DNA of 10,974 nt from a bacterium (lineage in GTDB: Bacteria > CSSED10-310 > JAJRTK01). Shown here in pieces: positions 978 to 9,859 of the stretch. Each line of letters opens with the position of its first letter. The stretch's first letter is position 1. The translations under genes and the position numbers were made by a program. The notes under the pieces are model-generated. The model was not told the origin of the DNA and did no database searches. It saw nothing but the letters and a program-made list of their open reading frames with translations. Location of the stretch: positions 1 through 10,974 of the forward strand of contig JAJRTK010000474.1 of NCBI GenBank assembly GCA_024278345.1, given 5' to 3'.

Positions 978-3461
978 ATGGAGCGAACGATCATCATCAA
1001 TGTCGAGCACCGGGAAACTCGCCTGGCAATGCTCGACAACAAGCAGCTCGTCGAGTTTCATGTCGAGCAGAAGAAAGCTGTTTCAGCGGTTGGCAGCGTC
1101 TACTACGGCAAAGTCATCAACATCGTTCCGGCTATCCAGGCAGCCTTTATCGATATGGGCCTGGAAAAACATGGTTTCCTGCATGTTGGAGACTTGCGGT
1201 TGCCGGACGTCGATATCGACCGCAACACCAAGATCCAGCAAGTTCTGAGCAAGGGTCAACCGGTTCTGGTGCAGGTCCAAAAAGATCCCATTGCTACCAA
1301 GGGCTTTAAGCTGACCATGGACGTCAGTCTCGCGGGGCGTTATACGGTTCTCATGCCCCGCTCGGAAAGCGCCGGGGTTTCCCGTTCCATCCAGGATCGG
1401 CGGGAGCGAGAGCGGCTTCGATCCATCTCGAAAGAGGCCAAAGTCTCCGGACTGGGCGTGATCATTCGGACGGTAGCTGAAGGCAAGCCCAAGGCCGAGG
1501 TCGCGAGAGACCTTCGTTATCTTGTTCGTCTCTGGAAGACCATCCAACAGCGTGTCCGGCAATCGAGCGATCCACATCTAGTTTACCATGCGCCAGATTT
1601 AGTGGAAAAAACCCTTCGCGACGCCTATAAGCAGTCCGACACGCGGATCATCCTCGATGATGAGAGCTGTCGCGAACGGATCATCCGCTTCTTGTCACTC
1701 TACTATCCCCGGCACGAATTCATCGACGAGATTCTGCTCTACAAAGAGGCCGAGCCGATTTTTCGGCATCATAACCTGGATCGTGAGCTGGAACGGGCTT
1801 TCAAGCGGCGCGTCGATCTCGAGTCCGGTGGCTTCCTGTTGATGGAAGAATCCGAAACCCTCACGGCCATCGACGTCAACAGCGGAAGGCTCACCAGGAC
1901 GTCGGGGCCAGAAGAAACAGCCATCCGGACGAACATGGAGGCGGCGGCGGAGATCACTCGCCAACCCCGGCTCAGGGACATCGGCGGGATGATCATCATC
2001 GACTTCATCCCCATGGGCACGAAGAAGCAACGCAACCGAGTCTACAACTCTCTCAAACGTGTCCTGAATCGCGATCGATCCCGCACCAAGCTTTCTTATT
2101 TTTCGGATCTGGAGCTTGTACAGATCACGCGCCAACGTGTCCGGGAGAGCCTCGAACAACAGATGACCGAGCCTTGTACCCACTGCAACGGGCAAGGCCG
2201 CCTCTTTTCCAGAGAAACGCTGGCCAGCCAGATCCTGCGGGAGCTACGGGAGCTCCTTTTTGCTCAGTATCCCACCGTGGTCAAGATCTGGCTCCACCCG
2301 GAAGTCCACCATTTGCTTGTCGAGGATCACACCTATATCCGGGACTTGGGGAAACAGACCGGAAGTAGCATTGTTTTTATTCCGGATCCATCGAAACCAC
2401 TGGATCGGTACCAGATCAAACCGGAGGGGATACCTCTGGTTTTGGCCGCACCGGCAGCATCGCGGGCACTTCGTAGCGACATCGCAAAACAGTTTGGAAA
2501 GGAGTTTCAAAAGGCGCTCTCGAAGGAAGAGCGGAAGAAGCTCGATCAGGCGGAATCCGAGGCGGTTCAAAAAACTGGAACACGCACTTCCGCCCCACAG
2601 TCCGCGGATGGTTGGGGTGACGAGAGACTGGAGCGTGAGGCCAAACGAGCCCAGCAGCGGGCGGACCGGCAGGCCCAGCAGCAGGCGGAGAAACAGGCCC
2701 AGCAGCGGGCGGAAGAACAGGCCCAGCAGCGGGCGGAAGAACAGGCCCAGCAGCAGGCGGAGAAACAGGCCCGGCAAAGAGCGGCGAAACGTGCGCCGAG
2801 AGACGGCGGCTCCAAAGCGAAGGAGGAGCGAAAGGGGAAATCCCCGGAAAAACCGGGCGACGTAGAAAAAGGGAAGAAGCCCGCCTCCCAGTCCCGTAGG
2901 CGAAGCTCTCGGGGTCGCCGAGGAAAGCAGCCGGAGCAATCTACTGCCAAGAAGGCCGCCGAAACGCGAAAACAGAAAGCTCCAGAGAACGGATCTGCCC
3001 AGTTGACAGAACAAAAACCCCGTCCTAGCCGAAAGAAACGTGGGAACCACCAGAGTTCGGAACCTAAGGGCAAATCCCAGGCGGCTGAAAAAAAGAAGAG
3101 TTTCACCAACGGGCTCCAGGCGCCGATGCCCGAACCGGGAAAAGCCCTCTCTTTTCGTCCCGAGCCGAAGGGGTCGAGGCTTCGTTTCAGCAGCCGCCGA
3201 GATCTGAAGAATGGTTTTGGCGACAAATACGAAATTTGGGCTCAGGCCGCCAAGGAACCTTCAAAGAAGCAAGATGTCGAACCGACTCCGGAAGCACCTG
3301 GCGCCCTTCCTGAAAACCAGGCGAAAGCACCGAAGAATGGAAAGCAACCGGCCACCAAGCGTCGCAAACCCCGCAGCCGTTCTCGATCATCTCGCCGACC
3401 GGCCAGGCCACGGAAAAATGCGGCAAACAACGGAGCACCAAAGAGCGTCCAATCAAGCTAA
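978..3461 (+). CDS. rne: Ribonuclease E/G family endoribonuclease with long basic C-terminal tail
   Basis: Single-strand-specific endoribonuclease that processes rRNA and tRNA and starts mRNA decay in the cytoplasm. The 827-residue protein opens with the family N-terminus and an S1 RNA-binding domain (about 37-120, 'GSVYYGKVINIVPAIQAAFID'). The 5'-sensor/RNase H-like region and DNase I-like catalytic domain follow. The metal-binding aspartates are Asp299 in 'TAIDVNSG' and Asp342 in 'IIIDFIPMG', and the Zn-link is Cys400-x-x-Cys403. From memory these sit four residues before E. coli RNase E Asp303, Asp346, Cys404 and Cys407. The catalytic core ends near 500. Beyond it is a low-complexity tail of about 325 residues rich in Lys, Arg, Gln and Ala, with six 8-residue repeats (558-605), resembling the disordered RNA-binding/scaffold half of RNase E more than the short RNase G. 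The ATG at 978 has an AAGGG Shine-Dalgarno 7-8 nt upstream. The gene overlaps the next one by 44 nt. The RNase E versus G name is uncertain; family membership is not. Confidence 0.95.
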   Translation: MERTIIINVEHRETRLAMLDNKQLVEFHVEQKKAVSAVGSVYYGKVINIVPAIQAAFIDMGLEKHGFLHVGDLRLPDVDIDRNTKIQQVLSKGQPVLVQVQKDPIATKGFKLTMDVSLAGRYTVLMPRSESAGVSRSIQDRRERERLRSISKEAKVSGLGVIIRTVAEGKPKAEVARDLRYLVRLWKTIQQRVRQSSDPHLVYHAPDLVEKTLRDAYKQSDTRIILDDESCRERIIRFLSLYYPRHEFIDEILLYKEAEPIFRHHNLDRELERAFKRRVDLESGGFLLMEESETLTAIDVNSGRLTRTSGPEETAIRTNMEAAAEITRQPRLRDIGGMIIIDFIPMGTKKQRNRVYNSLKRVLNRDRSRTKLSYFSDLELVQITRQRVRESLEQQMTEPCTHCNGQGRLFSRETLASQILRELRELLFAQYPTVVKIWLHPEVHHLLVEDHTYIRDLGKQTGSSIVFIPDPSKPLDRYQIKPEGIPLVLAAPAASRALRSDIAKQFGKEFQKALSKEERKKLDQAESEAVQKTGTRTSAPQSADGWGDERLEREAKRAQQRADRQAQQQAEKQAQQRAEEQAQQRAEEQAQQQAEKQARQRAAKRAPRDGGSKAKEERKGKSPEKPGDVEKGKKPASQSRRRSSRGRRGKQPEQSTAKKAAETRKQKAPENGSAQLTEQKPRPSRKKRGNHQSSEPKGKSQAAEKKKSFTNGLQAPMPEPGKALSFRPEPKGSRLRFSSRRDLKNGFGDKYEIWAQAAKEPSKKQDVEPTPEAPGALPENQAKAPKNGKQPATKRRKPRSRSRSSRRPARPRKNAANNGAPKSVQSS
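2649..2792 (+). repeat. Six tandem 24-bp units inside the RNase E/G gene
   Basis: Six consecutive 24-bp units encode AQQRADRQ, AQQQAEKQ, AQQRAEEQ, AQQRAEEQ, AQQQAEKQ and ARQRAAKR (residues 558-605). Units 3 and 4 are identical in DNA, as are units 2 and 5, which points to recent slippage or unequal exchange. The encoded segment is highly charged and should form a long single helix or coiled coil. Copy number probably varies between strains. Confidence 0.9.
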
Positions 3462-4491
3462 ACTCGATGCCAAAGCTTTCCGGTTTCGGGCCGTCCTCCA
3501 TGGAATTCTCTTGTTTGGTGTCCTGGCCTCCCTCGCCCCGGGCCCGGTGATGACTGCTCCGGCTTCCCCCGCCAAGGCCCCCACCGGCGGATCGGCGCCA
3601 AAGAAGCCATTGAAACCGTTCTTGGAGGTTTCCACCAAGGGGACTTACCGGCTGAGCTTCGACGCTCGGAATCGCTTGGTTGCCGCGAGCACTAGAGACA
3701 GGGCGATCCGCGTCTTTTCCAGTCTCGATGGAAGGCTCCTCCGCAGCCTGGATACCGGACGCTACACCGAAGCCCCGAAATGGATGGCCCATGGTCGCTA
3801 CCTGGCTGTCGCCGACTGGAAACCGTCACTTCATCTCTATGATGGCGCCACCTTCGAGCCGCTCTTCGAAATTGACCTCCCCTCTCGGGCTACGGCCATG
3901 GCGTTGGTAGAATCGAGCCGCCGGGAAAACCGCCTGGTGGCGGTGGGTCTTTTCGACGGGCGAGTCGCCTTTTACAAGCTTGGTGATGGTGCGAAGGTCG
4001 GGAATTTCCAGGCCCATGAACACTATGTCTCCGGCCTTGTATCTACCGGTGGGGGCCTGGTGACCGGCAGCTTCGATGGATCCCTGGCGGTATGGGATTT
4101 CGAGGGAAATCTACTCCGTCGGACCGACTGGAAAGTAGGAAACTTCATTCAGAAAGCCGACAATCAACGGGTATTGGTGAGAGATTTTTCCGATTCGGTG
4201 ACTCTATTTGATCCAGAGAAGAGCTCTAAATCCAAACCCCTAGCCTTGCTGGAAGAGACCCTGCTCGACACCGCGTTCGCCCCGTCTAGAAACCTGGTTG
4301 CCGCAGCGACGAGTACCGGCACTGTCTCTTTGTTCGACGCCACGGCGGGAAGAGAGATTCTCCGCTTCCAGGCCCATGGGGATCAGATCTTGGGTCTGGA
4401 TTTTACTGATGATGCCGAACTTTTGGTCACTGGCTCCGAAGACGGTACCTTCAAGATTTGGAAGGTTGCGGATTTGCTGAGATCCCGCTGA
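3418..4491 (+). CDS. Secreted WD40-like beta-propeller protein
   Basis: A protein of 357 residues from the ATG at 3418, with a hydrophobic export signal after a long basic N-region (about residues 22-47, 'AVLHGILLFGVLASLAPGPV'), followed by an Ala/Pro/Lys linker and about seven WD40-like blades (68-354). Blade endings include 'DRAIRVFSSLDG', 'KPSLHLYDG', 'DGRVAFYKLGDG', 'DGSLAVWDFEG', 'DSVTLFDPE', 'TGTVSLFDATAG' and 'DGTFKIWKV'. Seven blades would close a complete propeller, a protein-protein scaffold; the partner is unknown and no catalytic residues are seen. The start lies 44 nt inside the RNase E/G gene, so translation is probably coupled. An open frame extends further upstream but only as an overlap with the RNase tail. 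Membrane anchoring through an uncleaved signal is possible; otherwise it is periplasmic. Confidence 0.82.
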   Translation: MRQTTEHQRASNQAKLDAKAFRFRAVLHGILLFGVLASLAPGPVMTAPASPAKAPTGGSAPKKPLKPFLEVSTKGTYRLSFDARNRLVAASTRDRAIRVFSSLDGRLLRSLDTGRYTEAPKWMAHGRYLAVADWKPSLHLYDGATFEPLFEIDLPSRATAMALVESSRRENRLVAVGLFDGRVAFYKLGDGAKVGNFQAHEHYVSGLVSTGGGLVTGSFDGSLAVWDFEGNLLRRTDWKVGNFIQKADNQRVLVRDFSDSVTLFDPEKSSKSKPLALLEETLLDTAFAPSRNLVAAATSTGTVSLFDATAGREILRFQAHGDQILGLDFTDDAELLVTGSEDGTFKIWKVADLLRSR

Positions 4492-4518
4492 ATTCGCCGG
4501 GAGTCCTCGACCAACTCT

Positions 4519-4523
4519 GGAGG
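4519..4523 (+). promoter_or_regulatory. Shine-Dalgarno GGAGG deciding the TTG start at 4530
   Basis: GGAGG sits 6 nt before the TTG at 4530, the best ribosome-binding site in this stretch. It favours this start over the upstream TTG at 4458. Confidence 0.65.
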
Positions 4524-4529
4524 CAAACC

Positions 4530-6134
4530 TTGTCCAAACGTCCCTGCTCGCTCGTGGCCCTGGACTCATTTCCCCGTCTGGGATGGATCGAAAAGCCCTC
4601 ACCAGTTACGGCGATGCCGGACCTCGCCCGGAGCCTGGGACTGGAATGGCTCGGAGCCAAGCGGGATGACCAGTGCGCTGTTTTTCCCGGTGGCTCGAAG
4701 ATCCGAAAGCTCGACTATTTGCTGGCATCGGAACCATTCGCTAGCGCTAGCCGGTGGATCTCCATGGGCGCCATCGGATCGGGGCAACTTGTTGCCTGTA
4801 GCGAAGCAGCACGAAGGCTGGGGCGCAGCCACGAGGTTTTCGTCTTTTGGGAACCCCTCAGCTCCGGCGTCCTGGACAACCTGGCCTTCACGGCACTTCA
4901 TGCGGCGAAGCTCCGCTACTACCCCGGTCGGGTTTCCTGCTTCTTGCGGCACAGGCTCTCCGGAATTGGTGAGGGTGCGGTGATTCCGCCCGGCGCGAGC
5001 TGCCCCACCGCGATGCTCGGACTGGTCCGCGCTGGCCTGGAACTGGCGGCGCAGGTGGAAGCGGGACTGCTACCGGAACTTTCGCGACTCTACGTGCCCC
5101 TGGGCTCGGCAGGGACCGCTCTCGGACTCTTGGCGGGCTTGGCCTTGGGGGGCCTGAAGACACAAATCCACGCAATTTCCGTGGTAGAAAAGTTTCTATC
5201 GACCCGCCGGCGCCTCCGGCGGCTCTTGGGGGCGCTCAAAAAGCTCCTGATTTCCGCGAACATCCCAGAAGCCCGAGAACTGGACCTGGAAAGGCTCGTC
5301 ATTGATCGCCGCTACCTTGGACAGGGCTACGGTCGCGCTTCCGCCGAATCTCTGGCAGCCTGCCACCGCTTGAAGGAGCATGGCCTCACCCTGGAACCGA
5401 TCTATTCCGGTAAGGCCATGGCCGCCCTGCTGTCGGATGCCAAGAAAAACATCTCCGGAGCCGTTCTTTTTTGGAATACCTTCCGCGGCCCCCTGCCTCC
5501 GCCGAGGGAGGGGTGGCAGGAGCGGCTTCCTCGAAAGCTTCGGCGACGCCTGAAAATGGCCGAAACTTCTTCCGGCCCGACGCGCAGGATCTTTCTCCTG
5601 GGCGGAGCAGGGCTGGCCCTTGCGGGTGCCGTCGCGGTGCGGATCACCGGTTATCCTGATCTTCCCGATTGGAAGGGGAAAGTCCTTCGTCCCTGGCAGG
5701 CGCTGGTCCTCATGGCGGCGGCCGAGGCTCTGCTTCCACCGCTCTTGGGTGATCCAGATTTCGCGGGCGTCGCGGCAAATGTGGATGCGTACTTAGTGGG
5801 AATGCCCAAGGGGTTTCTGCGCCAGATTGATCTTCTGTTTTGGGTCATCGAGCAGGGGACGACGCCCCTGGGTCTCAGGGTTTCCCGCTTCACGGAGCTC
5901 CAACCCCAGGCGCGGGAAGAGTATTTATCGGGGCTTGCGGCCTGGGGCGGTCCCCTTGGGGAAGCCTACCGAGGTCTTCGCGATCTCTGCATGATTGGCT
6001 ACTATCAGCAAGATGCCGCCTGGAAGGGAATGGGCTACGAGGGCCCTTGGATCAAGGATTCTCAGAAACCAGATGATCCCTATCGAAGGCTCCTCGCCTC
6101 CCCGGGGAGCTTGCCCCAAGGAGCCTCACCATGA
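4530..6134 (+). CDS. PLP-dependent enzyme (ACC deaminase/D-cysteine desulfhydrase-like) read in frame into a Tat-signal dehydrogenase small subunit
   Basis: One uninterrupted frame of 534 residues with two unrelated parts. Residues 1-342 are a fold-type II PLP enzyme. 'KRDDQCAVFPGGSKIRKLDYLL' carries the expected Schiff-base Lys57, 'GAIGSGQ' replaces the usual G-x-x-S-N-H/Q loop, and 'GSAGTALG' is the phosphate-binding loop. The family deaminates ACC or desulfhydrates D-cysteine; the substrate here is unknown. After a basic stretch ('RLPRKLRRRLK'), residues 343-534 begin with Met-Ala and a twin-arginine signal and look like gluconate 2-dehydrogenase subunit 3. I chose the TTG at 4530 because GGAGG lies 6 nt upstream; another TTG at 4458 overlaps the WD40 gene and has no such site. 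There are 38 nt after the WD40 stop, and the 3' end overlaps the GMC gene by ATGA. It may be a true fusion, a lost stop codon, or two proteins with an internal start at 5556. Confidence 0.8.
   Translation: MSKRPCSLVALDSFPRLGWIEKPSPVTAMPDLARSLGLEWLGAKRDDQCAVFPGGSKIRKLDYLLASEPFASASRWISMGAIGSGQLVACSEAARRLGRSHEVFVFWEPLSSGVLDNLAFTALHAAKLRYYPGRVSCFLRHRLSGIGEGAVIPPGASCPTAMLGLVRAGLELAAQVEAGLLPELSRLYVPLGSAGTALGLLAGLALGGLKTQIHAISVVEKFLSTRRRLRRLLGALKKLLISANIPEARELDLERLVIDRRYLGQGYGRASAESLAACHRLKEHGLTLEPIYSGKAMAALLSDAKKNISGAVLFWNTFRGPLPPPREGWQERLPRKLRRRLKMAETSSGPTRRIFLLGGAGLALAGAVAVRITGYPDLPDWKGKVLRPWQALVLMAAAEALLPPLLGDPDFAGVAANVDAYLVGMPKGFLRQIDLLFWVIEQGTTPLGLRVSRFTELQPQAREEYLSGLAAWGGPLGEAYRGLRDLCMIGYYQQDAAWKGMGYEGPWIKDSQKPDDPYRRLLASPGSLPQGASP
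5556..6134 (+). CDS. Tat-signal gluconate 2-dehydrogenase subunit 3-like protein (alternative internal start within the fused frame)
   Basis: If translated from the in-frame ATG at 5556, this is a 192-residue exported protein. It begins M-A-E-T-S-S-G-P-T-R-R-I-F-L-L-G-G followed by a hydrophobic stretch, a typical twin-arginine (Tat) signal at the position expected for a mature gene start. The body shows the subunit-3 pattern: 'LMAAAEALLPP' early, a 'VDAYLVGMP' helix, and near the end 'MIGYYQQDAAWKGMGYEGPW', the conserved motif of this family. In FAD-dependent gluconate and glucose dehydrogenases this small subunit escorts the signal-less GMC subunit through the Tat pathway, and a GMC gene follows with an ATGA overlap. 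No strong Shine-Dalgarno precedes the ATG (TGAAA only). An out-of-frame TGA at 5551 lies five nt before it. The domain identity is firm; separate translation is inferred. Confidence 0.55.
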   Translation: MAETSSGPTRRIFLLGGAGLALAGAVAVRITGYPDLPDWKGKVLRPWQALVLMAAAEALLPPLLGDPDFAGVAANVDAYLVGMPKGFLRQIDLLFWVIEQGTTPLGLRVSRFTELQPQAREEYLSGLAAWGGPLGEAYRGLRDLCMIGYYQQDAAWKGMGYEGPWIKDSQKPDDPYRRLLASPGSLPQGASP

Positions 6135-7651
6135 TTTTCGACGCTTCGAGCTTCCCGCTTCCGCTGACCCTGGAAAGCGATCTTTGCGTCATCGGCTCCG
6201 GAGCCGGTGGCGCAACGGCCGCCACCGTGGCAGCGGAAGGCGGAATGAAAGTCATCATGCTCGAAGCAGGCGAGTTTTTGACTCCCAGCGACATGAGCCA
6301 GCGGGAAGAGGAGATGATGCCGCGGCTCTTCCGCGAAGCAGGAGCCAGAACCACCGCCGACCGCCGGATCAAGATCATCCAGGGGAAAGGCGTCGGCGGT
6401 TCGACTCTTCACAACCAAAATCTTTGTAAACGAATTCCGCCGGAGATTCTGGAGGACTGGAGCAGAAACCGACAGTTGGCGAAACTCTCCACGGAGGACT
6501 GGGATGCCCTCTATGGCGAAATCGAAAAAATGCTCGAAGTCACTCAAATCGACCGCGGCCTTTGGAATCGCCACAACTTGCTCTTGGAAAAGGCTTGCCA
6601 AGAGCTCGGGTGGCGCGGCGGGCCTCTCTTCCACAACCGCACGGGCTGCATCGGCTCGGGATTCTGCGAGCTCGGTTGTGCCTATGACGCCAAGAACAAC
6701 GCCTTCAAAGTCTTGGTGCCCCGCGCCATCCGCGCTGGAGCCCAAATCCTCTTCCGGTGCCAGGCGATCCGCCTCCTGCACGAAGCTGATGGCGTCACCG
6801 GAGTTCAGGCCGTCGCTCTGGAGCCAAGGACGAACCGGGTCCTGGGCCAGATCCTGATCCGTGCGCCCAGGGTCTGCGTTTCCGCTTCGGCAACGGGGAC
6901 AGCCGCCATCCTTCGGCGCTCCAGGCTCTCCGATCCACCCGGCTCCGTGGGCGAAAACCTCCACATCCATCCCGCCGTCATCGTGGCGGGCGATTTCGAC
7001 CAGCCGGTCCGGGCCTGGGAGGGAATTCCTCAAACTTACGAATGCACCCAGTTCCTGGAATTCGGCGCCAAGGCCGAGCACGAAATCTGGATCGTTCCGG
7101 CCTTCGCCCATCCACTGGGCACATCGGTCATGCTTCCCGGGCATGGCCGATCTCACCGGGATCTCATGGAACGATACGAGCACTTGGCGGTTCTCACGGC
7201 AATGCTCCACGACTCCACGGTGGGCCGAGTGGAACCGGCAGGGGATCTGGGGCTCCGTATCGGCTACCGTCTCAGCCCCGAGGAGCGGGGAGAACTGGTG
7301 TTCGGGCTCCGGGCCTGCGCGAAGCTGCTTTTTGCCGCTGGCGCACGCCGGGTCATCGTTCCCGGGCCCAACCTCCGAATTCTCCGAAAGCCCGATGAGA
7401 TCGAGGATCTTAGAAAGTTATCCACATCTTCGGAGCCCCTGGGCATGACGGCGGTTCACCCCATGAGCACGGTTCCCATGGGCGACGATCCTCAGACGGC
7501 GGCGGTGGGGAGCGACGGGAAGCACCACCGCCTCGAAGGCCTCTGGATTGCCGATGGATCCCTCTTCCCCTCTTCCATCGGCGGGCCTCCACAACTCTCC
7601 ATCTATGCCCTGGGCCTTCACGTGGGAAGAGCGCTCCTTGCCCACGGCTGA
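6131..7651 (+). CDS. GMC-family FAD-dependent oxidoreductase
   Basis: A flavoprotein of 506 residues in the glucose-methanol-choline family, which oxidises alcohols, sugars or sterols. The N-terminal FAD-binding fold shows G22-x-G-x-G-G ('VIGSGAGGATAA') and a 'LEAGE' ribose-binding end at about 44-48. The GMC signature is 'GKGVGGSTLHN' (85-95). A Cys cluster 'GCIGSGFCELGC' (Cys173, 179, 183) precedes 'DAKNNAF'. The C-terminus carries the active-site His443 in 'HPMSTVPMG' and 'GLWIADGSLFPSS'. Where most relatives have Asn or His in a 'VNP' motif, this one has 'GGPPQLSI'. There is no signal peptide, so export would depend on the Tat-signal partner encoded just upstream. ATG at 6131 follows AAGGAG by 7 nt and overlaps the upstream stop (ATGA), implying tight coupling. 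The closest match by context is a membrane-bound periplasmic dehydrogenase subunit. The substrate is unknown and no cytochrome c subunit is found nearby. Confidence 0.93.
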   Translation: MIFDASSFPLPLTLESDLCVIGSGAGGATAATVAAEGGMKVIMLEAGEFLTPSDMSQREEEMMPRLFREAGARTTADRRIKIIQGKGVGGSTLHNQNLCKRIPPEILEDWSRNRQLAKLSTEDWDALYGEIEKMLEVTQIDRGLWNRHNLLLEKACQELGWRGGPLFHNRTGCIGSGFCELGCAYDAKNNAFKVLVPRAIRAGAQILFRCQAIRLLHEADGVTGVQAVALEPRTNRVLGQILIRAPRVCVSASATGTAAILRRSRLSDPPGSVGENLHIHPAVIVAGDFDQPVRAWEGIPQTYECTQFLEFGAKAEHEIWIVPAFAHPLGTSVMLPGHGRSHRDLMERYEHLAVLTAMLHDSTVGRVEPAGDLGLRIGYRLSPEERGELVFGLRACAKLLFAAGARRVIVPGPNLRILRKPDEIEDLRKLSTSSEPLGMTAVHPMSTVPMGDDPQTAAVGSDGKHHRLEGLWIADGSLFPSSIGGPPQLSIYALGLHVGRALLAHG

Positions 7652-7654
7652 ACG

Positions 7655-9859
7655 ATGACCTGGCACTCCCCGTCTTTCCCCCTACTCTTCGAAATCCCCA
7701 TGGAATCGCAGAATCCTCACAACCCGCACGAGGAGCCCCCGCTGGAGGACCCGCTTCTTGGACTCGAGCTCGCTGGCTGCCGTCTGGTGAAGCGGATCGG
7801 CACGGGAGGCATGGGCGCGGTCTACCGGGCGGTCCAGCTTTCTCTCAACCGGTCCGTCGCCGTCAAGCTCATCCACCCCATTTTTGCCGCTGACCCCGAC
7901 AACCTCGCCCGGTTCTACAACGAAGCCCGGGTCGTCGCCGCCCTCAATCACCCCCATATCTTGCAGATTTACGACGTGGGCCGGAATGCGGGTCTCCACT
8001 ACATCATCATGGAGTTCATCGAGGGCCTGAGCTTGGGCGAACTCGCCACCGCCGGCGCCCCCATGGAGCTCTACGTGGAGATCCTTCTGCAAGTTCTCTC
8101 CGGCTTGGGCCATGCCCACAAGCGGAGCGTCATCCATCGGGACCTCAAGCCGGAGAATATCCTCCTTGCGGGAGGCACCCACGCAAAGATCGCGGATTTT
8201 GGGATTGCCAAGATGTTAGATGCCGCCAGGCACCTGACGGCCACGGGCAAGGTGGTGGGCACGCCGAGCTACATCAGTCCGGAAGCCGCCCAAGCCCAAC
8301 CTCTCGACGCACGAAGCGACATCTATTCCTTGGGTGCCACCTTTTACCACGTTCTCACGGGTGAGCTGCTCTTCGATGGCCCGTCACCCATGGCGGTGGT
8401 GATGAGCCACCTTCAACAACCTCCCCGCCCCTTGCGGGAGCTGCGCCCTTCTATTCCTTCGTGGCTTGCCCGGATTATCGAACAGATGTTGGCCAAGGCT
8501 CCGAAGGATCGCTTCCCCGATTGCCAGGCCATCATCGATGCCCTGGAGATCGGCCGGGCCAAGCGGCTTGTCCACAGTCAGACCTCTCTTGGGGGAGCCC
8601 ACCTTTCTCATTCTGGCCCTTCCAAGGAATCCCGGCCCCAATCCAAGACGACCAAGCTTGCTCGTTTCGCGTCGAAGCTGGCAAATCCTTTCGGCCGCTC
8701 ACCCTGGCAACCATGGGAAACATCCGGATCCAGGCCGAAACAACCTTCGCGACGGGCTTCCACGTCCGCTCAAAGAAAAGCCCCCCTTGTCACACTGCTA
8801 CTTCTGCCGTTCCTGCTGGTGGTGGCATTGTTGGGACATGAGATGCGGCGCACCCAAAAACTGCTTTCCCCAGCGCCCCAAAATCCTCCTCCCACCGACA
8901 CGGTCAACCTTGACAAGCCGCCGCTTTCCGAAGCTGGGCTCCCCAAAGTACCCCAGATCATCGCGACCCCGGCACCGACAGCCACGGAAGCCAGAGGAGA
9001 CGAACTGGGAGAGCTCGTTGACCCTCTCCCCTCCCCCCAGAGTCCAGAGTTCCCTGATTGGCTGCCCATGGTGGAGGCGCCGCTTCAGGCTCTGGGAAAG
9101 TTCGCTCACGAGACCGCTCGTTTCCTGATTCTGGTGCAGATGTCCGTCCAAGCCGAGCCCACGCCTCTGGCGAGCGCCACCGCTTCTCCACCCGATGACA
9201 CCGCCCCCACACCACTGGACCAGGCCGAATCGCGTCCCACCCAAGTGCCCTCACCAGTGCCCCCCCCTGAGGCCACCGCCACTCCAGCGCCGCCAAAACC
9301 AGATCCGAAGCTGACGGACGAAGCCGATATCGCCGAATTCCTCCGGCGAACCAGCGAAGAGATCGAGAACCTCCTGGCCAAGGGTAAACTGGACGATGCG
9401 TGGCAGCTCTACAGAGTGGCAAAGAGCCGGGTTGCTTCCGGGAACCGGACATCAAAGAGGCGCCAGGTCCTGGCCAGCCTGGGGAGGAGACTGCTCCAGG
9501 CGCCTCTCCGCGAACGATGCCGCCGATTTCTGCGACACCTGATAGCCAAAAGGTGGGTGACTCTTTCCTACTATTTTCCGGCGAAGAACTGCGAGTTTTC
9601 CAAGGAGCCCAACATCAGACGAGTGGAAAAGCGCCTTCGGAAGCTCCTGGGTTTGCCAAAAAAGAGCGTCATCAGGAAGAGTGACATCGTAGAGCTTCAG
9701 CTTGGCAAAGACCGCAAAACCGGCTGGACACGGCTCTCTCTCCACCTCAAGGGGCACTCCAAACCGACACAGGTCCGCCTGGAATGGATCCTGACCTGCG
9801 GGCGGTGGCGTCTTGACACCAAGCCCCTCAAATCCAGACTGCTGGGTTTGTTCGACTGA
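7655..9859 (+). CDS. Membrane Ser/Thr protein kinase (PknB/Hanks type) with extracytoplasmic C-terminal domain
   Basis: A protein of 734 residues. The cytoplasmic kinase domain (about 43-300) is complete: glycine loop 'IGTGGMGAVY', Lys71 in 'VAVK', helix-C Glu90, 'HRDLKPEN' with catalytic Asp163, 'DFG' 181-183, an activation loop with Thr195 and Thr197, 'GTPSYISPE' and 'SDIYSLG'. All catalytic residues are present, so it should be active. A basic, Ser-rich juxtamembrane stretch (305-376) leads to one transmembrane helix (about 377-394), then a Pro/Thr/Ala-rich extracytoplasmic linker (405-555), a charged helical region (555-625) and a compact C-terminal domain (about 620-734, 'RFLRHLIAKRWVTLSYYF' and 'RLEWILTCGRWRLD') that may be an NTF2-like fold; this last point is inference. 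The first ATG lies 3 nt after the GMC stop; a second in-frame ATG at 7700 would remove 15 residues. Neither has a good Shine-Dalgarno. It ends the plus-strand block. Confidence 0.9.
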   Translation: MTWHSPSFPLLFEIPMESQNPHNPHEEPPLEDPLLGLELAGCRLVKRIGTGGMGAVYRAVQLSLNRSVAVKLIHPIFAADPDNLARFYNEARVVAALNHPHILQIYDVGRNAGLHYIIMEFIEGLSLGELATAGAPMELYVEILLQVLSGLGHAHKRSVIHRDLKPENILLAGGTHAKIADFGIAKMLDAARHLTATGKVVGTPSYISPEAAQAQPLDARSDIYSLGATFYHVLTGELLFDGPSPMAVVMSHLQQPPRPLRELRPSIPSWLARIIEQMLAKAPKDRFPDCQAIIDALEIGRAKRLVHSQTSLGGAHLSHSGPSKESRPQSKTTKLARFASKLANPFGRSPWQPWETSGSRPKQPSRRASTSAQRKAPLVTLLLLPFLLVVALLGHEMRRTQKLLSPAPQNPPPTDTVNLDKPPLSEAGLPKVPQIIATPAPTATEARGDELGELVDPLPSPQSPEFPDWLPMVEAPLQALGKFAHETARFLILVQMSVQAEPTPLASATASPPDDTAPTPLDQAESRPTQVPSPVPPPEATATPAPPKPDPKLTDEADIAEFLRRTSEEIENLLAKGKLDDAWQLYRVAKSRVASGNRTSKRRQVLASLGRRLLQAPLRERCRRFLRHLIAKRWVTLSYYFPAKNCEFSKEPNIRRVEKRLRKLLGLPKKSVIRKSDIVELQLGKDRKTGWTRLSLHLKGHSKPTQVRLEWILTCGRWRLDTKPLKSRLLGLFD

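Follow-up and report, generated by a model that had tools for sequence, protein, structure and literature searches.

Can a complete enzyme precede a twin-arginine (Tat) signal in the same polypeptide, and if so, on which side of the membrane would each part end up? The question is raised by one gene in the window, a 10,974-base stretch of bacterial DNA. The first-pass annotation described a PLP enzyme and a Tat-signal subunit in one frame without a stop codon between them, and the frame 4458-6134 (+) is indeed open through both halves. Of the three explanations then offered, a real fusion with an internal membrane segment is borne out by conservation across the clade, a lost stop codon or error is rejected, and internal initiation at 5556 is not supported.

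The likely start of the fusion gene is TTG 4530, which has a strong Shine-Dalgarno sequence (best anti-SD duplex of -9.3 kcal/mol). Counted from there, the ATG at 5556 encodes residue M343, the number previously given for the internal methionine. Within the gene, the PLP enzyme comes first, followed by the Tat signal with its arginine pair and then the small-subunit domain, and the stop codon (TGA 6132-6134) overlaps the start of the GMC gene. The coordinates of all features are listed in Table 1.

Table 1. Features of the fusion gene and its GMC partner, in positions of the window.
Feature	Positions	Strand	Remarks
Shine-Dalgarno sequence GGAGG of the fusion gene	4519..4523	+	6 nt before TTG 4530
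Fusion gene	4530..6134	+	534 aa, TTG start; the frame is open, and homologues keep their full length in one frame
Fold-type II PLP enzyme domain, residues 1-337	4530..5540	+	D-cysteine desulfhydrase/ACC deaminase family
K57 in GGSKIRK, presumed PLP-binding lysine	4698..4700	+	invariant in 21 fusions
Poorly conserved linker, residues 338-351	5541..5582	+	separates the PLP domain from R352 R353
Internal ATG (M343), probably not a start	5556..5558	+	no SD; ATG in 2/40 homologues
Twin arginines R352 R353	5583..5588	+	in 40/40 fusions and 45/45 aligned subunit sequences
Weakly hydrophobic helix (354-370) and flanking R371	5589..5642	+	follows RR
Helical small-subunit domain, distant Gluconate_2-dh3 (PF13618)	5643..6131	+	always directly upstream of GMC
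GMC oxidoreductase, no signal peptide	6131..7651	+	PF00732 1.5e-33, PF05199 6.7e-21

The PLP domain is recognized by the Pfam PALP profile (6.4e-19; 68.8 bits against a curated cut-off of 35) and matches PDB entry 4d8t at 7.8e-22, with its GGSKIRK motif aligned to GGNKLRK of that enzyme; its structural model superimposes on 4d8u with a Z score of 36.5 and an rmsd of 2.6 over 308 residues. The residues that are invariant in this half among 21 aligned fusions include K57, S84, Y267, and Y292. The domain nevertheless stays under the cut-off of every named NCBIfam model, scoring 93.2 bits of the 289.4 required for TIGR01275, 54.6 of 392 for TIGR01274, 109.4 of 450 for CuyA, and 96.6 of 429 for PRK03910.

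The small subunit is harder to place. A PF13618 match was obtained for 8 of 45 subunit relatives (best 7.8e-8) and not for the subunit half of the window, and the search of the small-subunit model against the PDB returned no fold match, which is uninformative either way. Its GMC partner passes both Pfam cut-offs (GMC_oxred_N, 116.9 bits against 23; GMC_oxred_C, 75.7 bits against 24.6), and the protein begins at its FAD motif, without a signal. It carries a cysteine triad, C173/C179/C183, that recurs in 47 of 59 GMC relatives and that we offer only as a suggestion of an Fe-S cluster in this enzyme. The triad was not found in the GMC partners of a Myxococcaceae-related subgroup (L048, L049, L052, L055, and L089), in which the fusion is kept. 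At one further locus, the GMC gene that follows the fusion is split into two frames (L102:3081-4578, +), by a frameshift or as a pseudogene.

When both halves were aligned to homologues, a check that had been proposed for this locus, relatives were found to encode one fused gene. There are 40 distinct fused frames including that of the window, mostly from Myxococcota and among them one from the finished genome of Minicystis rosea, and in each of the 40 the two halves are joined in frame without a stop codon, and an RR pair is present. Scanning the genome collection with GMC yielded 29 loci, in 21 of which the PLP and subunit halves adjoin, always as one frame without a stop; further fusions came from a survey of 377 genomes of the phylum to which M. 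rosea belongs. A scan of genome contigs with the subunit alone as query found no relatives. In two genomes (G428 and G417) both halves again lie in one frame, and the TGA counted there is not between them. The junction frame is open in 40/40 fusions, and the other two frames are open in 24/40 and 35/40. As an internal control, the subunit-to-GMC junction at the same loci uses all three frames (24, 6, and 2 cases where scorable), which indicates that the PLP/subunit junction is not in frame just because the genes are tightly packed. By these alignments, the fusion is genuine and conserved across the clade.

A further question is what the signal does at residue 352, behind a complete enzyme rather than at the N-terminus. 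The Tat-like stretch MAETSSGPTRRIFLLGGAGLALAGAVAVR (5556-5642) contains the segment TRRIFLLGGAGLALAGAVAVR at residues 351-371, and in all 40 fusions a pair of adjacent arginines leads into a weakly hydrophobic stretch. Between L337 and D419, the 21-fusion alignment has no invariant residues other than R352 and R353; the helix of the predicted structure begins at this pair, and R371 is conserved in at least 90% of sequences. The uncharged stretch has a median of 16 residues, which is short and borderline for a stable anchor. No AxA cleavage site is conserved after the helix among the fusions; one is present by eye in three relatives with separate genes (L111-L113). The fusions thus combine the features of internal Tat signals, namely an internal RR, low hydrophobicity (Kyte-Doolittle best 15-mer mean of 2.0 across the 40), and a positive charge after the segment (R371). 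The earlier doubt that a buried Tat signal could serve export was too strong, given the internal signals known from FecR and from the Rieske proteins of actinobacteria.

Together, the invariant RR, the weak hydrophobicity, R371, the signal-less GMC partner, and a TatC encoded in the genome of the window (G000) favour an uncleaved, N-in/C-out membrane protein inserted by Tat, in which a cytosolic PLP enzyme is anchored to the membrane and a periplasmic dehydrogenase is carried along as a hitchhiker; we give this reading about two chances in three. Translation from TTG 4530 would give a single polypeptide. The PLP enzyme at its N-terminus would fold in the cytoplasm, and the internal RR-plus-hydrophobic segment would serve as an uncleaved Tat signal-anchor. 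TatBC would bind this segment as the usual hairpin; a Tat signal enters the membrane in this form, its RR lying at the cytoplasmic face of TatC (PMC7317946), so an enzyme ahead of RR would be left in the cytoplasm and only the C-terminal subunit domain would cross. Bound to that domain, the GMC dehydrogenase would be carried across with it, and the product would be an N-in/C-out complex with the PLP enzyme on the inner face and the FAD dehydrogenase on the outer face. Tat dependence, topology, hitchhiking, and lack of cleavage are all points that we infer.

Alternatively, the fusion could be wholly cytosolic, with the RR helix left over as a structural linker and GMC likewise in the cytosol. 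Such a location would suit a protein whose N-terminus is a cytosolic PLP enzyme and whose hydrophobic stretch is short, but it would not be expected to hold RR invariant in 40 fusions while the surroundings drift, and the non-fused subunits of the sister group carry ordinary-looking RR segments. We regard it as unlikely.

The linker bears on two other alternatives. Across homologues it measures 9-36 aa and varies in whole codons only, and in close pairs changes at third codon positions are in excess (77/170, from pairs that are not independent) despite its fast evolution, as expected for translated sequence. One chain could be made and then cut between the PLP domain and RR, which would set free an ordinary Tat precursor with its signal at the N-terminus. 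In favour of this, no part of the protein is less conserved than the linker, which is also modelled with low confidence, yet its length and sequence vary widely, with no conserved site; moreover, a plain stop codon, as in L111-L113, would suffice for the same outcome, whereas the fusion is kept clade-wide. This route, too, is improbable.

The same frame could also yield two products, the full fusion and a Tat subunit translated on its own from ATG 5556. In the window, an in-frame ATG does stand ahead of a textbook RR signal, and one relative (L050) likewise has an ATG there. However, the anti-SD pairing of -2.1 kcal/mol upstream of ATG 5556 is weaker than at 78% of positions within the coding sequence of the window, and the interval from the PLP domain to RR has no conserved start position among the 40 homologues, 21 of which lack any ATG, GTG, or TTG there. 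With start codons missing from so many homologues and a variable linker, internal initiation is not the conserved mode; an internal start at 5556, without an SD and not conserved, is not supported, and we consider the two-product scheme doubtful. The out-of-frame TGA noted just upstream does lie at 5551-5553, but its interpretation as a remnant of a gene boundary is unsupported, since in the three relatives with separate genes the dividing stop shares the reading frame of the subunit. Finally, a sequencing or assembly error, or a stop codon lost in this strain alone, might be suspected in a contig from a draft genome of 550 contigs, but the same fusion in about 40 related bacteria, spanning dozens of independent assemblies and one finished isolate genome, rules it out for practical purposes.

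With an anchored, uncleaved fusion as the preferred reading, we turn to its origin. In the GMC tree, the window groups with the fused loci and with L053 and L117, both truncated at contig ends, in one clade (100/98), and the sister group (L026, L068, L069, and L071) has the subunit without the fusion. The fused enzymes also form one clade in the PLP tree (100/99), which contains a single stand-alone paralogue (L115) and whose sister is a Planctomycetota copy, L071, located 1.5 kb upstream of a subunit-GMC gene. In that gene (L071:4323-6485, +), the Tat subunit is fused to GMC instead, in a frame of 721 residues. The genome with the stand-alone PLP gene (G103) also has a fused copy (L059), and duplication and fission are possible there. 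Because the genome of the window belongs to a small phylum other than the one surveyed with 377 genomes, its fusion gene was probably acquired by transfer.

In three outgroup genomes (L111-L113), the PLP, subunit, and GMC genes are adjacent but separate, with an in-frame stop, and the subunits have ordinary Tat leaders with an alanine-rich cleavage region. Their PLP enzymes belong to a different subclade from the fused ones, and these loci may represent a second, independent pairing of the same functions. It is thus probable that PLP and GMC enzymes were paired, or stayed paired, on more than one occasion, and this speaks for a functional link. Apart from the fusion and GMC, no conserved neighbours that might point to the substrate were found, except in one very close group of five loci. 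The window itself contains an RNase E/G gene with a long, repetitive, basic C-terminal tail (978-3461, +) and a Ser/Thr protein kinase gene (7655-9859, +) on either side of the locus; kinase genes are also found close to L065, L067, and L072.

Both teaching and prediction place Tat signals at the N-terminus. If the proposed topology is correct, the Tat receptor would accept bulky, folded N-terminal extensions in a family kept across Myxococcota, and predictors that scan only protein N-termini would miss such substrates. An orphan subfamily of PLP enzymes would also be linked to a GMC dehydrogenase, with both made testable. We lean, by a small degree, toward a “two-faced” enzyme with PLP chemistry inside and an FAD dehydrogenase outside the same patch of membrane, whose reactions are possibly coupled. 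In an incomplete literature search, no description turned up of a Tat signal with a complete enzyme fused in front of it; internal Tat signals are already known, and it is the enzyme ahead of one that is apparently new.

Relative to known systems, the PLP half resembles D-cysteine desulfhydrase and ACC deaminase (4d8t, 1j0a, and 1rqx) in its fold and PLP-lysine motif, and differs from them in having GAIGSGQ/H for GAIQSNH and a C-terminal fusion. FecR spans the membrane once, with a short anti-sigma domain in the cytoplasm at its N-terminus and its C-terminal domain in the periplasm. The N-terminal part of the fusion, by contrast, is a complete enzyme of ~337 residues, and the half predicted to be exported is a dehydrogenase subunit. 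The internal Tat signal is common to both, as far as that of FecR is described in accounts of the original report (Passmore et al. 2020, J Bacteriol 202:e00541-19; via PMC11533796 and PMC10924467). Rieske proteins of actinobacteria, Sco2149 among them, have internal Tat segments that are released from Sec by their low hydrophobicity and by the positive charges that follow them (PMC5449189). The fusion shares with them a Tat motif within the chain, both of these properties, and an exported C-terminal domain (here predicted), but the Rieske segment follows two or four Sec-inserted spans (PMC5449189) and that of the fusion follows a soluble PLP fold with no earlier span.

The closest parallel for the dehydrogenase is the FAD-glucose dehydrogenase of Burkholderia cepacia, whose small Tat subunit is a Tat hitchhiker protein (PMC6719666). 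No significant sequence or fold match was found between the fusion's small subunit and the B. cepacia gamma subunit, and the B. cepacia enzyme has an N-terminal signal, a separate small subunit, and no PLP enzyme (PMC6719666). As with its gamma and alpha subunits, however, a small Tat-signal subunit and a signal-less GMC subunit are encoded together (PMC6719666), and the spacing of its 3Fe-4S ligand cysteines (212/218/222) is the same as that of C173/C179/C183 in the GMC partner of the fusion.
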